A DNA stretch of 64,000 bases from Polynucleobacter sp. MG-Unter2-18. Its GTDB lineage: Bacteria > Pseudomonadota > Gammaproteobacteria > Burkholderiales > Burkholderiaceae. The first letter of the stretch is position 1; each line of letters starts with the position of its first letter. The notes below the pieces were generated by a model, which was not told the origin of the DNA, did no database searches, and saw only the letters and a program-made list of their open reading frames with translations. The stretch lies in the NCBI RefSeq assembly GCF_018687675.1, contig NZ_CP061302.1:1190192-1254191 (forward strand). The letters run 5' to 3'. Both the position numbers and the translations under genes were made by a program. Positions 59,525 to 64,000 of this stretch are shown one piece after another.

Positions 59525-60391
59525 ATGTTTAGTTATCGCCATGCTTTTCATGCGGGTAGTCATGCCGATATTCTGAAGCATCTGGTGATGATTCATCTGG
59601 TTGAATATCTACAAGAAAAGCCTGGGGCTTTGACGATTGTTGATACGCATGCTGGTGCTGGTATCTATAGTCTGACCGATGGCTTTGCCACTGTCAGCAA
59701 AGAAGCCGATCAAGGTATTTATCGCTTGGCTCAATTTGCAGAGAATAATGCCGTAAGTCCAGGTATCGCCAACTACCTTGAATGCATTCGTTACGAGAAT
59801 GCTGCTAATGAGATTAACGTCTATCCTGGCTCTCCATTTATCCTGGCGCGTTTACTGAGGGCACAAGATCGTCTCAAGCTATTTGAGTTACATCCCAAAG
59901 AGATTGATATCCTGCGCCACAATATCAGCCAGCTTAAGCAATCAAAGCAAATCGATATTTATGCAGAAGATAGCTTTGCAAGACTGAAAGGTTTAATGCC
60001 ACCACCCAGTAGGCGCGGTCTAGTATTGATTGACCCCTCTTATGAAGATAAGCAGGACTATCGCTATCTCGACACTGCAATCGAAGAGGCTTTACATCGC
60101 TTCGCTACCGGTTGCTACGCAATTTGGTACCCCTGCCTCTCCAGAAGAGAATCCGCTTCTCTACCGGATCACATGAAAAAGATTGCGGCAACCCACAAGC
60201 GCTCCTGGTTACAAGTTGAACTTCGGGTTGAGAATGCTCCTAAAGAGCGTCGTCTTCAGGCTAGCGGGATGTTCATCATTAATCCGCCATGGACTCTTGA
60301 AAAGCAGCTATCTGAAAGCCTACCCATTCTGGTTAAGGCACTGGGACAAGATGGTGGCGCCTCATTTGTACTAAAAAGTCTTGAGGTCTAG
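59525..60391 (+). CDS. rlmJ: 23S rRNA A2030 N6-methyltransferase RlmJ
   Basis: This is a 288-residue SAM-dependent methyltransferase for 23S rRNA. It has MFSYRHAFHAGSHADILKH at the start, typical of RlmJ, the SAM-binding VDTHAGAGIYSL near residue 39, and the catalytic DPSYE near residue 169 (DPPY-like). Its ATG is just after the PAP2 stop, but the function is housekeeping, so co-transcription may be incidental. It is convergent with psiE. Confidence 0.93.
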   Translation: MFSYRHAFHAGSHADILKHLVMIHLVEYLQEKPGALTIVDTHAGAGIYSLTDGFATVSKEADQGIYRLAQFAENNAVSPGIANYLECIRYENAANEINVYPGSPFILARLLRAQDRLKLFELHPKEIDILRHNISQLKQSKQIDIYAEDSFARLKGLMPPPSRRGLVLIDPSYEDKQDYRYLDTAIEEALHRFATGCYAIWYPCLSRRESASLPDHMKKIAATHKRSWLQVELRVENAPKERRLQASGMFIINPPWTLEKQLSESLPILVKALGQDGGASFVLKSLEV

Positions 60392-60432: not shown

Positions 60433-60804
60433 TTATACCTCTGAATCTTTAGTACTCATGGCTTTTTTAATGATGATCGCTGAAAGAGCCAGCAACAATA
60501 CCGCTCCACTCTCATAGATTAAGTCAATCGTACTAATACCCTTACCCTGCAAAATAATGAGCCTGCAAAGAGCAGTAATGGCGATGAAGATGGGGATAGT
60601 GATTGGAATCTTGTTGTACTTGTAAAAAGCTGCCACCATGCCTAGCACCTCGGCATAAATGAACATTAGCAACAGATCGGTTAAAGTAATTTTTCCGTTG
60701 AGGATAACGGTATACATCTCTATGCCGACACTAAAAATAGTAAAAAACGCAATGAGAATTAAGATTCCTTTTTCAGCTGCAGTAATCCATTCGTAAATTT
60801 TCAT
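60433..60804 (-). CDS. psiE: PsiE-like phosphate-starvation membrane protein
   Basis: This is a 123-residue membrane protein with four helices and the PsiE pattern of a charged centre (LLLMFIYAEVLGMVAAFYKYNKIPITIPIFI) and a final basic tail. PsiE is induced by phosphate starvation in E. coli, but its biochemical role is unknown. It lies 33 bases downstream of an ArsR-type regulator gene on the same strand, so it may be its target, an inference only. Confidence 0.8.
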   Translation of the reverse strand: MKIYEWITAAEKGILILIAFFTIFSVGIEMYTVILNGKITLTDLLLMFIYAEVLGMVAAFYKYNKIPITIPIFIAITALCRLIILQGKGISTIDLIYESGAVLLLALSAIIIKKAMSTKDSEV

Positions 60805-60837: not shown

Positions 60838-61119
60838 TTAAATGGCATCACTGTGCAAGACTAATTGCTGAAAAACTGCTGGGATATTACTGGCGCAGTA
60901 GTAACGCCTATTTCTTCTGGTATTTTTTTTACTGACGAGATTGACGTTGATCAGTTTCTTCAAATGAAATTGCAAAGTACCTGAGTCCACCCCAAACTGC
61001 TCGACTATTTCTTTGGGTGCAACTCCGTCCTCACCTGCCTGCATGATGAAATCAAAAACTTGTAATCTGATTTCACAACCCAAGGCTTCAAACACTGAAC
61101 AAAATTTCATGATCGTCAT
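60838..61119 (-). CDS. ArsR-family winged-helix regulator
   Basis: This is a 93-residue ArsR/SmtB-type regulator with the winged helix (RLQVFDFIMQAGEDGVAPKEIVEQFGVDSGTLQFHLKKLI at about 18-57). No canonical metal-binding CxCxxC or DxHxxxxH is present, so it may sense redox or another ligand through Cys7 or Cys15, or not at all. It lies between hemE and psiE, on the same strand, and could control either. Some phototrophs use ArsR-like repressors for pigment genes, but I cannot tell here. Confidence 0.85.
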   Translation of the reverse strand: MTIMKFCSVFEALGCEIRLQVFDFIMQAGEDGVAPKEIVEQFGVDSGTLQFHLKKLINVNLVSKKNTRRNRRYYCASNIPAVFQQLVLHSDAI

Positions 61120-61171
61120 ATTAGCTCCCTTGCATCACCTCAGAATCTGCCTTTAAAAAAATTGACTTCTC

Positions 61172-62293
61172 TTATTGGGTACTTGCCCTAAAGCTTGTTG
61201 AATACCGCTTAACGGCATCGACTAAAACAGCAACATTCTCTGGAGGGGTGAATTGTGAAATTCCATGCCCCAGATTAAAAGTATGTCCATCGAGTGGATT
61301 GCCACCAGCAACATCAGCCGTTGATAAACCTTGAAACAATTGCATGACACGAGCATCTATTTCAGCAGGGTTTGCTAACAAAATCGAGGGGTCTAAATTA
61401 CCCTGAATTGCAATTGGGCTATTGGATACATGGTTAATGGTTTGTCGCGCATGTTTTAGGTCAATAGTCCAATCCAGACCAATCACATTGGCACCTGATT
61501 GCGCAATATCGCTTAACCAAAGACCCCCTCCCTTGGTAAACAAAATGATAGGCAGATCTTTGTATTTGGGATTGCTTTTAATACTGCTGATAATTGCTGA
61601 CATGGGAGCTAGTGAATGCTCAAGATAGTCATTCGGGGTCAATAGGCCACCCCAAGTATCAAAAATCATGAGGGCCTGAGCGCCAGAATCTGCTTGCAGT
61701 GTGAGGTATTCAGTGATGGATTGGACGTTGATATCCAATATTTTTTGGATGAGATCTTTGCGGTCATAGAGCATCTTCTTTGTCTTAGCAAAGTCTTTTG
61801 ATCCACCGCCTTCAATCATGTAGCAAGCTAAAGTCCAGGGACTTCCTGTAAATCCAATTAAGGGAACTTGCTGTTTGCCATTGGAGGTGAGTGCCTTAGA
61901 GATGGATGCTACGGCATCAAAAACATAACGGAGCTGCTCCATATCAGCTACTGGAAGCTTTTTTACATCTTCTTCGGAGCTTAATGGGTGCAAAAACCTC
62001 GGCCCCTCACCGCTATCAAAAGTGAGGCCCAATCCCATTGCGTCTGGAACAGTCAATATATCTGAAAATAGTATCGCGGCATCTAGGCCATAGCGATCTA
62101 TAGGCTGCAGGGTAACTTCTGTTGCGTACTCTGGGCTTTTGGCTAAATCGAGAAAACTTCCAGCCTTAGCTCTGGTTTGGCGATACTCTGGAAGGTAGCG
62201 TCCAGCCTGCCGCATCAACCAAACAGGCGTTCTTTCTGTTTTTTGAGAAAAACAAGCTCTTAAAAAAAGATCGTTCTCTAATTCTGCCGCCAT
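61172..62293 (-). CDS. hemE: Uroporphyrinogen decarboxylase
   Basis: This is a 373-residue enzyme converting uroporphyrinogen III to coproporphyrinogen III, the shared step to haem and bacteriochlorophyll. It shows RTPVWLMRQAGRYLPEYR near residue 21, ILFSDILTVPDAMG near 74, GFTGSPWTLACYMIEG near 147, and a Tyr/His-containing C-terminus (FNLGHGI). It lies 17 bases downstream of a PpaA-like regulator gene on the same strand. In phototrophs a second hemE is often inside the photosynthesis cluster; whether this is the only copy is unknown. Confidence 0.95.
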   Translation of the reverse strand: MAAELENDLFLRACFSQKTERTPVWLMRQAGRYLPEYRQTRAKAGSFLDLAKSPEYATEVTLQPIDRYGLDAAILFSDILTVPDAMGLGLTFDSGEGPRFLHPLSSEEDVKKLPVADMEQLRYVFDAVASISKALTSNGKQQVPLIGFTGSPWTLACYMIEGGGSKDFAKTKKMLYDRKDLIQKILDINVQSITEYLTLQADSGAQALMIFDTWGGLLTPNDYLEHSLAPMSAIISSIKSNPKYKDLPIILFTKGGGLWLSDIAQSGANVIGLDWTIDLKHARQTINHVSNSPIAIQGNLDPSILLANPAEIDARVMQLFQGLSTADVAGGNPLDGHTFNLGHGISQFTPPENVAVLVDAVKRYSTSFRASTQ

Positions 62294-62310
62294 GCACTGA
62301 CACCTATGAA

Positions 62311-63279
62311 CTAGCGCAATCGCTCAACATAATAAGTTGCCTTTTCCAAGGCATCCGCTGCATCAAATCCAACCATGTCGGCACCCAATTCATCTACTAA
62401 CTCAGGGTGTTGATTGAAAACAGGGCTGCCAACAATCACACCAACACGCGGATTTTTGGATTTAAGCTTGATTTCTTGAATCAGGTCTTTTAATTGCGGG
62501 AACTGTTCACGTAAACTTGCCGATAGGCCAATGACATCAAACCACTCTGTCTGTGCCATGGAAACAATATCCTCTTGTGTAGCAGCCAACTCACCCCAGA
62601 TTCTCCAGCCCGCTTTAGCAAAAAACTCAGAAACCATAAATAGCCCTAAGTTATGTTGCGAGCCCGGCAAGGGAACAAGCATGATGCTCGAACCAGTTTT
62701 ATTTTGCTCTGCATATTGCTGGAAGATGGGACTTAAGTCATACATCAACTGCTTGATACGCCAAAGTGCAATCGTGACGTCGGTGAAGCTAGACTGATCA
62801 TCCTCCCACATTTCACCCAGCTTTCTCGCAACTGGAGTTAATAAGAGTAAATAAATATTTTCGAGACTAACGCCTGAAGCATGAATATCTTTGACGTACT
62901 TAACAGAGGTTCTCGCATCCTCTTGCAATACTAATTGCGTTAACTCGGTAATCGATTGTTGGGTAATCAGGTCGGCTGGAGGCGCTTTTAAAACTGAGGA
63001 AATCGATGTCTCTAGATGCTTCTCAACGATCAAGGGCAATATATTATTTTCAATCGTCTTGACTAGCGACTCAAGATACTCTTCTTCCGTGCAAGCTTTT
63101 TCTAATGGATGCGGGGTATCGTTTTTTTCAAATGTAGCCTTAGAGGGTGCATTTGCAACCAGGCAGTCCTCCCAGATGCTATTGGGCTCATTTGAGGGGG
63201 AATTCTGATTAAGTTTGGAGTCGTCTTGGCTAGATCTCTTTTTAGATTTAGCGATGCTCACTAGTCTGGATAAATTCAT
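62311..63279 (-). CDS. ppaA: B12-binding photosynthesis regulator (PpaA/AerR-like)
   Basis: This is a 322-residue protein with a disordered N-terminus, a four-helix segment (about residues 115-188) and a C-terminal Rossmann-like cobalamin-binding domain (about 198-322). The base-off ligand motif is preserved as His209 in QHNLG (HxxG). In the helix bundle the Trp158 of WEDDQSSFTDVT keeps the cap Trp of light-sensing CarH proteins, but the Glu-His after it is Val-Thr. That fits PpaA/AerR-type antirepressors of pigment genes. The ATG at 63279 sits eight bases after AGG; the GTG at 63288 is an alternative. It is in an operon with hemE. Confidence 0.78.
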   Translation of the reverse strand: MNLSRLVSIAKSKKRSSQDDSKLNQNSPSNEPNSIWEDCLVANAPSKATFEKNDTPHPLEKACTEEEYLESLVKTIENNILPLIVEKHLETSISSVLKAPPADLITQQSITELTQLVLQEDARTSVKYVKDIHASGVSLENIYLLLLTPVARKLGEMWEDDQSSFTDVTIALWRIKQLMYDLSPIFQQYAEQNKTGSSIMLVPLPGSQHNLGLFMVSEFFAKAGWRIWGELAATQEDIVSMAQTEWFDVIGLSASLREQFPQLKDLIQEIKLKSKNPRVGVIVGSPVFNQHPELVDELGADMVGFDAADALEKATYYVERLR

Positions 63280-63303
63280 GAACATCACCTGATCAGATCA
63301 CAG

Positions 63304-63323
63304 TCTCAAATCATTACTTGAGA
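63304..63323. promoter_or_regulatory. Inverted repeat upstream of ppaA
   Basis: TCTCAA, eight bases, TTGAGA lies 25 bases before the ppaA start. It is a candidate operator; it does not match the PpsR (TGT-N12-ACA) or FNR patterns. The regulator is unknown. Confidence 0.35.
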
Positions 63324-63340
63324 TCGCTATGACTGCCTAA

Positions 63341-63375
63341 GAGCCTATAAATGGGAATGTTTACTTTATAGGCTC
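63341..63375. terminator. 11-bp perfect stem between bciB and ppaA
   Basis: GAGCCTATAAA and TTTATAGGCTC pair perfectly around a 13-base loop. On the plus strand it is followed by ATTTTT; on the minus strand, the direction of the genes, the T-run is missing. It may act as an RNA processing or partial termination element in the bciB-ppaA gap. Confidence 0.6.
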
Positions 63376-63403
63376 ATTTTTGAAGATACTCAAATGAATT
63401 AGC

Positions 63404-64000
63404 TTAAGTACTTTCCCTAGACCCCTTTATTTCATCACTAGAAGGCCGTATTTCATATTTTTCAAGCAAAACCCAGGTGGCTTTAGGCACCATATTTTTT
63501 ATTTTGTGCGGCGCAATGCTACGTAAATGAATCACCGATTCGATTGCCTTCATCTCTACCCTCGCTTTAGCAAACTCTAGCCCTCGAGGCCCAAATCTCG
63601 GCATTACCCAGGCAAAAATACTGCGCATGAAGTTGGGCATCCGCTGCAATGGTAAGCCCCCTGCGGCGAGCTCCACATTTTTCATAAAGCCTTTAACGGG
63701 ACCCAAACGATTGCCAGCGGAACTCACCGGTTCAAGCGATAGCTCGTTAGAAAGGAGATTTATGAGCTCTTGACCTTTTGGATTGCGAACAATAATCCAT
63801 TGCTCCCCTGTGCCTGCCATATACCCCACCGTAATATCCGATAGGGAGTTGACGTAATCAACACAGGTTTTACAAGTCGTTGGGAAAAAATCTGCGGGCA
63901 AAGTGCTGAGAGGTAACTTTAAAAAAGGAATCTCTTGCACTTCACCATTTTTAAATCTCAATTCAACATGGTAATCGGCCCTAAATTCTAAATACGTAAT
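63404..64000 (-). CDS. bciB: BciB-like 8-vinyl reductase, C-terminal part (cut by window edge)
   Basis: This is the C-terminal 198 residues of a protein that continues past the right edge; the frame is open to base 64000, and the internal TTG at 63961 is not the start. The segment TTCKTCVDYVNSLSDITVGYMAGTG is the coenzyme F420 hydrogenase/dehydrogenase beta C-terminal signature. It matches BciB, the ferredoxin-dependent divinyl chlorophyllide 8-vinyl reductase of bacteriochlorophyll synthesis, better than FrhB. The adjacent ppaA-like and hemE genes support this. A 7-hydroxymethyl chlorophyll reductase or another FrhB-like protein is possible until the N-terminus is seen. Confidence 0.7.
   Translation of the reverse strand: MTYLEFRADYHVELRFKNGEVQEIPFLKLPLSTLPADFFPTTCKTCVDYVNSLSDITVGYMAGTGEQWIIVRNPKGQELINLLSNELSLEPVSSAGNRLGPVKGFMKNVELAAGGLPLQRMPNFMRSIFAWVMPRFGPRGLEFAKARVEMKAIESVIHLRSIAPHKIKNMVPKATWVLLEKYEIRPSSDEIKGSREST

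Follow-up and report, generated by a model that had tools for sequence, protein, structure and literature searches.

Does the right edge of a 64,000-nt stretch of DNA from Polynucleobacter sp. MG-Unter2-18 (the window; C1:1190192-1254191, read in the forward direction on the single 2,009,228-base contig NZ_CP061302.1, here C1) open into a photosynthesis gene cluster (PGC)? A preliminary description of the window had pointed to a BciB-like reductase fragment, an AerR/PpaA-like B12-binding gene and hemE lying in one direction at this edge, and all three are indeed on the minus strand, at 61172-64000 of the window. It had proposed that these genes mark the edge of such a cluster and that bch, puf, puh and crt genes be looked for to the right. 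We read the contig beyond the window (C1:1249000-1325999) and found a complete PGC on the chromosome; all four groups of genes are present within 50 kb, pufM and pufL (C1:1286605-1288460) coming 32-34 kb after the right end of the window. The region is thus almost certainly the left edge of a complete chromosomal PGC of the aerobic anoxygenic kind, with a type II reaction centre, and its genes are predicted to act as set out below.

The island spans about 52 kb, from psiE (C1:1250624) to a gene for a BLUF protein (C1:1303029). Starting from the window, the minus strand carries bciB, dxs, hemA, tspO, bchP, a PucC-family gene, bchG, ispH, puhE, acsF, an open reading frame (ORF) of 117 aa, puhC, puhB, puhA, a second PucC-family (lhaA-like) gene, bchM, bchL, bchH, bchB, bchN and bchF. 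There follow a plus-strand block (aerR1, ppsR, crtA, crtD, crtC) and a minus-strand block (crtB, crtI, pufC, pufM, pufL, pufA, a 76-aa ORF, pufB, bchZ, bchY, bchX, bchC, crtF, crtE); the far end consists of bchO (plus), bchD and bchI (minus), a gene for an MsbA-like ABC transporter (plus), and a 47-aa ORF and the BLUF gene (minus). Start codons in the island are predicted ones.

At least one curated NCBIfam cut-off was exceeded by 28 island proteins: PuhA, PuhB, PuhC, PuhE, PufC, PufM and PufL; AcsF and BchP, G, M, L, H, B, N, F, Z, Y, X, C, D and I; and PpsR, CrtD, CrtI, Dxs, HemA and IspH. The reaction-centre genes pufL, pufM and puhA were confirmed by TIGR01157, TIGR01115 and TIGR01150, and the bacteriochlorophyll a pathway, including bchXYZ, bchC, bchF, bchG and bchP, is represented above the cut-offs. 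The oxygen-dependent cyclase AcsF scored 467.7 bits with TIGR02029 (cut-off 192.5); bchE is not among the annotated island genes, no search for RuBisCO or bchE having been made in the genome. The alpha and beta chains of light-harvesting complex 1 (LH1), the PucC-type genes and BLUF were named by Pfam. No rhodopsin match was found in the source genome (three of the 101 genomes compared have one). One of these genomes, G045 (L133 and L157; a fragmented assembly), has both PufLM and a rhodopsin gene, a case of possible dual phototrophy.

The genes at the window edge are as follows (window coordinates).

59525..60391, plus strand: rlmJ, a housekeeping gene (RsmJ/RlmJ Pfam family, 221.8 bits, cut-off 27) and the last ancestral gene left of the island
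60433..60804, minus strand: gene for a psiE-family membrane protein (PF06146, 66 bits, cut-off 23.9), the outermost island gene
60838..61119, minus strand: gene for a small ArsR-type helix-turn-helix (HTH) regulator of 93 aa (HTH_20, 27.8 bits, cut-off 27)
61172..62293, minus strand: hemE2, a second uroporphyrinogen decarboxylase gene, the copy at the PGC edge (TIGR01464, 387.2 bits, cut-off 303)
62311..63288, minus strand: aerR2, gene for an AerR/PpaA-like B12-binding regulator of 325 aa (predicted start), named from Pfam and its best PDB match
63404..64000, minus strand: bciB, the part encoding the C-terminal 198 of 410 aa (FrhB_FdhB_C, 45.7 bits, cut-off 23.3)

The grouping is not due to chance: the family matches are strong for all but the small HTH protein, which scored 32.7 bits with the ArsR/SmtB NCBIfam model, below its cut-off of 55, and the order of bciB and the AerR-like gene recurs in other loci, as given below.

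The bciB gene runs past the window end to C1:1254827, the full protein being of 410 aa. Among solved structures its closest match is the plant enzyme 7-hydroxymethyl chlorophyll a reductase (HCAR, 5dqr; 241 bits, 1.7e-70, residues 15-394), which we take to be the plant relative of BciB. The best match to an F420-type protein reached 72 bits (4.3e-19) and that to FrhB (3zfs) 50 bits (2.7e-12), so that an FrhB identity can be dismissed and the reductase is BciB-like, as had been supposed; this is a comparison with structure chains rather than a tree of BciB proteins. The match to HCAR is nearly full-length and the cysteine pattern is mostly kept. Three of the four N-terminal cysteines align, as do the inner ones; one cysteine of the HCAR motif CGLC is Ser in BciB, with another Cys nearby. 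As a predicted ferredoxin-dependent 8-vinyl reductase, BciB would reduce the 8-vinyl group in bacteriochlorophyll a synthesis.

BciB is 99% identical to that of P. hallstattensis MWH-Hall10 and 97% to that of P. bastaniensis. In 19/19 loci with BciB identity of at least 71%, bciB is followed, 119-253 bases away and in the same direction, by an AerR-like gene. Burkholderiales PGCs of the Limnohabitans/Hydrogenophaga/Rubrivivax type have many genes in common with the island; in the 61 other loci, however, aerR is never the next gene after bciB in the same direction. In eight of the 19 Polynucleobacter-type loci hemE comes after aerR2 (locus L020 is too short to tell), hence hemE2 is an accessory of some PGCs and not of all.

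Three precursor genes of the island are second copies. The other hemE (C1:22512-23612, beside ATP synthase genes) is 61% identical to hemE2, the other dxs (C1:1630401) is 67% identical to the island dxs and the other hemA (C1:129080) 54% identical to the island hemA. The non-phototroph G008 has a single full copy for each of the three genes. The island dxs and ispH, together with hemA and hemE2, may supply isoprenoid and tetrapyrrole precursors apart from the housekeeping copies.

The best PDB match of AerR2 is Rhodobacter capsulatus AerR (7te2, 4.1e-14), and its domains are B12-binding (64.5 bits, cut-off 32.1) and B12-binding_2 (25 bits, cut-off 23). Roles have been described for AerR residues Trp94, Phe101, the lower ligand His145 and the highly conserved Gly220 (PMC9144470). 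With an offset of 39 applied between chain and protein numbering of 7te2, AerR1, encoded beside ppsR, keeps all four, and AerR2 keeps those matching Trp94, Phe101 and His145. Thus both proteins align with R. capsulatus AerR and retain the lower-ligand His; the difference is that here there are two paralogues, and that AerR2 has a long N-terminal extension. AerR1 also weakly matches the SCHIC domain of AppA (5e-4). AerR-family proteins track reaction centres: of the 101 genomes, 26 have a strong match to AerR2 (E-value of 2.6e-25 or better, with either paralogue counted) and 26 have PufLM. The two sets share 25 genomes, and one genome on each side stands alone (G050 and G028). Ten further genomes have weak AerR2 matches (1e-8 to 3e-4). 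Plasmid-borne relatives of AerR2 occur in 24 records, all at <60% identity.

The palindrome TGT-N12-ACA, described as the CrtJ/PpsR target (PMC9144470), occurs seven times in the island, and four of the seven sites fall in the 2.7% of the island that lies outside genes, before bchF/aerR1, bchC, crtE/bchO and bchG (binomial tail 1.8e-5; four were reached in 0/500 shuffles of the intergenic bases). Gene ends in this test include starts chosen by us for bchG, ispH and bchH. PpsR would repress at these four candidate sites, and AerR1 and AerR2, the latter encoded at the edge, may act as B12-dependent antirepressors of PpsR that respond to light or redox state. Light energy would supplement respiration.

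Where does the island end, and what lay there before it? In the non-phototroph G008 (RlmJ 93% identical) the order PAP2, rlmJ, SOUL-domain gene (o213), ldcA, tadA and queD is unbroken, with no psiE between rlmJ and the SOUL gene. In the source genome and in G018 the island separates these two genes, and it therefore runs from psiE to the BLUF gene; the right end in G018 reads MsbA, 47-aa ORF, BLUF, SOUL. The earlier suggestion that the PsiE and ArsR genes form the cluster boundary beside rlmJ is thus borne out by the intact neighbourhood of G008. A search for rlmJ succeeded in 14/14 genomes (the copy of G027 is 43% identical and has one internal stop), and the next gene after rlmJ is the SOUL gene or ldcA in ten of them, namely in eight of the nine genomes of the genus without PufLM (G027 being unreadable) and in the phototrophs G010 and G014. 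In loci L012 and L015-L017 rlmJ and the SOUL gene are adjacent and the same kind of cluster lies to the side; in L012, the one of this group that was checked, it lies beyond a gene that we call R6. Other Polynucleobacter loci differ from the present one in that the cluster lies past R6, a neighbouring gene, or in that hemE2 and arsR are missing next to aerR2. Integration at a tRNA gene was rejected, as a scan of six loci showed no tRNA, a scan that did not extend to integrases.

RlmJ is 94% identical to that of P. hallstattensis and 92% to that of P. bastaniensis, and by the identities of BciB and RlmJ the source organism is a Polynucleobacter species close to P. hallstattensis. The PGC of the latter has the same edge genes at 94-99% identity, a comparison of the left end. 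The psiE family stands at this edge in G018, G012, P. hallstattensis (L025) and P. bastaniensis (L007). The ArsR-type HTH protein has orthologues at 95% in G018 and G012 alone among the 101 genomes, all others being at 53% or less, and is 99% identical in P. hallstattensis (L025). PufLM is present in 22 of 61 genomes of the genus, the source genome included. A complete PGC has been published for P. duraquae MWH-MoK4 (PMC5018217), which we know from print, the PGCs of P. hallstattensis, P. bastaniensis and others being known from sequence; the present finding itself therefore belongs to a known kind. The preliminary description was thus right, from the letters alone, in what it saw and in how it read it. 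One correction applies to its 'non-obvious heterotroph': the host is a Polynucleobacter, and for this genus a PGC is already in print.

Two genes at the far end call for a remark. The BLUF protein (L005:15617-16030; C1:1302616-1303029) is the only BLUF match of the genome and the outermost gene there; the gene has the same place in G018 and, by coordinates, in G058. BLUF matches occur in 66 of the 101 genomes, non-phototrophs included, so the link to the photosystem is one of position only, and we rejected the protein as a photosystem regulator. G012, introduced below, has none. The MsbA-like transporter gene (L005:13593-15362; L125:11973) is found at the far PGC end in both the source genome and G012, the proteins being 67% identical; it is not in the 20 kb fetched from G008.

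Several points weigh against a working photosynthesis cluster as we read it. BchO, CrtA, CrtB, CrtC, CrtE, CrtF and TspO fall below their NCBIfam cut-offs and were named from best matches and position; BchB and BchD are each below one of their cut-offs; neither the two PucC-type genes nor AerR1 gave an NCBIfam match at 1e-8; and the 117-aa ORF matches neither Pfam nor NCBIfam. In AerR2 the position of Gly220 is taken by Ser, for which reason we call the protein AerR-like and not AerR. TGT-N12-ACA is not enriched over the whole sequences, where counts are below the shuffled means; no site precedes aerR2 or hemE2 (one lies inside hemE2), and the bchG site is intergenic only with the downstream ATG start. 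The B12 supply was judged from two cobalamin riboswitch matches only, and expression, pigment and B12 binding are predicted here. Finally, cultures of P. duraquae MWH-MoK4, the strain with the complete PGC, were never pigmented according to PMC5018217.

The last point supports an alternative in which the cluster is complete but silent, its intact genes being unexpressed in nature or starting to decay. The apparent loss of a PGC from this site in G012 is in its favour as well. We noticed, however, no broken frame among the PGC genes of the source genome, and in the two stretches compared with G018, which lie outside the island middle, the island proteins are 89-100% identical and keep their order, a sign of selection. 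The photosystem of Roseateles is produced only when carbon is scarce (PMC10037100), so that a lack of pigment in culture is weak evidence. We consider a cryptic cluster unlikely, with a small but real chance of being right. A corrinoid methyltransferase operon, made of a methyltransferase with the uroporphyrinogen decarboxylase fold, a corrinoid protein and an F420-type reductase, has next to no chance, since its weak NCBIfam matches (MtgC-type corrinoid proteins, methylcobamide methyltransferases and F420 hydrogenase beta subunits) are far below their cut-offs (32 versus 310, 59 versus 235 and 88 versus 269 bits), HemE is above its own, the best solved relative of the B12 protein is AerR, and bch, puf, puh and crt genes follow in the next 50 kb; scores and flanking genes together rule it out for hemE and the B12 protein.

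A probable history of this site can be read in one relative, G012. Its rlmJ, psiE, arsR and hemE2 are 93-96% identical to those of the source genome; after hemE2 come a 54-codon remnant (L122:4647-4811) and then the SOUL gene, the cluster being gone. The first 43 aa of the remnant match the start of AerR2 (65%), its last 13 resemble the end of AerR2 by eye, and the junction of this scar is the same as in the source genome and G018. The PGC that G012 does have, of type B, is most similar to that of G014; in both genomes it starts past R6, which in G012 is about 8 kb away from the scar. Its proteins are 72-99% identical to those of G014 and 32-86% to those of the source genome; the G014 range omits BchL (36) and BchB (27), which are paralogue comparisons, bchL, bchB and bchN of G014 lying outside the fetched stretches. 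RlmJ and PAP2 of G012, in turn, are 93% identical to the source genome and 78% and 63% to G014; the picture is less clear for the genes to the right of the site (73-91% and 66-84%, respectively).

Maximum-likelihood trees agree with this discordance between PGC and housekeeping genes. In approximately unbiased (AU) tests, forcing G012 together with the source clade cost 886 log units on the PGC data (p-AU 5e-5); on the housekeeping data (ATP synthase, ParB and HemE) forcing it together with G007, G014 and G030 cost 370 (2e-60), and with G014 alone 261 (7e-14). The housekeeping tree is built from seven proteins of one locus (ParB, ATP synthase, HemE1) in 30 genomes, G001 being represented by hemE alone and G003, G025, G045 and G055 being left out; bootstrap values around G012 are modest (68-69). 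The PGC tree is unrooted, has PufC for five of 23 genomes and does not decide whether Polynucleobacter PGCs are polyphyletic. G028 (partial PufLM) is in neither tree, and G061 and G077, which have PufLM, were not used. The trees also place the PGCs of G047 and G048 as sisters while their housekeeping genes are distant, another possible PGC exchange.

We consider it likely that G012 lost a type-A cluster at this site and now holds a type-B PGC nearby, a photosystem swap. Alternatively, G012 may have lacked a type-A cluster here from the start, having acquired no more than the edge genes psiE-arsR-hemE2, and its type-B PGC would be ancestral. The absence of the type-A cluster would fit, as would G046, which is near the source clade by housekeeping genes (support 68) and yet has a type-B PGC. 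The SOUL, ldcA, tadA and queD genes of the source genome are 73-91% identical to G012 and 68-97% to G008, so that G012 is not uniformly close to the source genome on that side. Against this scenario, the edge in G012 ends in an aerR2 remnant with the same junction as in the two intact islands, and the AU tests reject both the grouping with the source clade for the PGC and that with G014 for the housekeeping genes; we regard edge-only transfer as improbable. A swap of this kind was not found in titles and abstracts on the PGCs of Polynucleobacter, Limnohabitans and Burkholderiales, a search that left subscription papers mostly uncovered. The cluster behaves like a transferable block, which one relative appears to have lost here while holding another version nearby.

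The puf operon contains a third LH1-like gene, outside the window:

C1:1288746-1288976 (L005:1747-1977), minus strand: ORF of 76 aa, LH1-beta-like, between pufB and pufA

We read 50 Burkholderiales puf loci, of which three without a located pufA or pufB were skipped. An ORF that lacks the ligand His of PufB stands between pufB and pufA in 46 of the remaining 47 (45 genomes, G072 counting twice; 44 distinct sequences). The single miss, locus L165, is from G089, a genome that does match in the genome search. Of the 399 genomes of the order covered by this search, 47 have the ORF, three of them by weak matches (9e-5 to 5e-4), and pufA and pufB adjoin it in 30/30 loci fetched for it. Among the genomes listed, its presence agrees with that of PufLM (45 genomes in common): both occur in the source genome, G061, G072, G077 and G089, and neither in G016, G024 and G060. 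The one Limnohabitans and two Hydrogenophaga operons that we read have the same extra ORF.

The protein has a conserved length of 73-80 aa and no Pfam or NCBIfam family. Its profile matches LH1 beta chains in PDB (8z81_B, 9.6e-9) and the PufB profile (3.1e-9, probability 96%). The ligand His, by which PufB binds bacteriochlorophyll, is present in 46/46 PufB proteins and in 0/46 of the ORF proteins, where no His lies within three columns of the position. The protein may be a pigment-free subunit of the ring around the reaction centre. In Roseateles depolymerans, the order of locus tags puts ORF74 between pufB and pufA, and it is reported to be co-transcribed with pufBA (PMC10037100). We equate the two by place only, the sequences not having been compared by name; the available part of that report assigns ORF74 no family, whereas that of Polynucleobacter is an LH1-beta relative with no ligand His. 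More tentatively, and with somewhat less than an even chance, we propose that Polynucleobacter PGCs are exchangeable blocks at two neighbouring sites, that G012 swapped its photosystem together with the regulators, and that both PGC types, like the puf operons of Burkholderiales, carry this pigment-free LH1-beta-like subunit, perhaps a quinone gate similar to PufX.

The PGC is of a known kind, to which the scar of the swap and the His-less relative of LH1 beta add interest. A freshwater bacterium is settled as the carrier of a complete phototrophy cluster, with both borders placed by comparison with an empty site. In the island, the extra dxs, hemA and hemE genes and the two AerR-like regulators are handles on the question of why such clusters can stay silent in culture. 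The His-less protein is a testable candidate for a ring subunit in an order of phototrophs. The scar in G012 likely records the loss and exchange of an entire photosystem inside a single genus; if so, one lineage would have changed its photosystem and its regulators at once.

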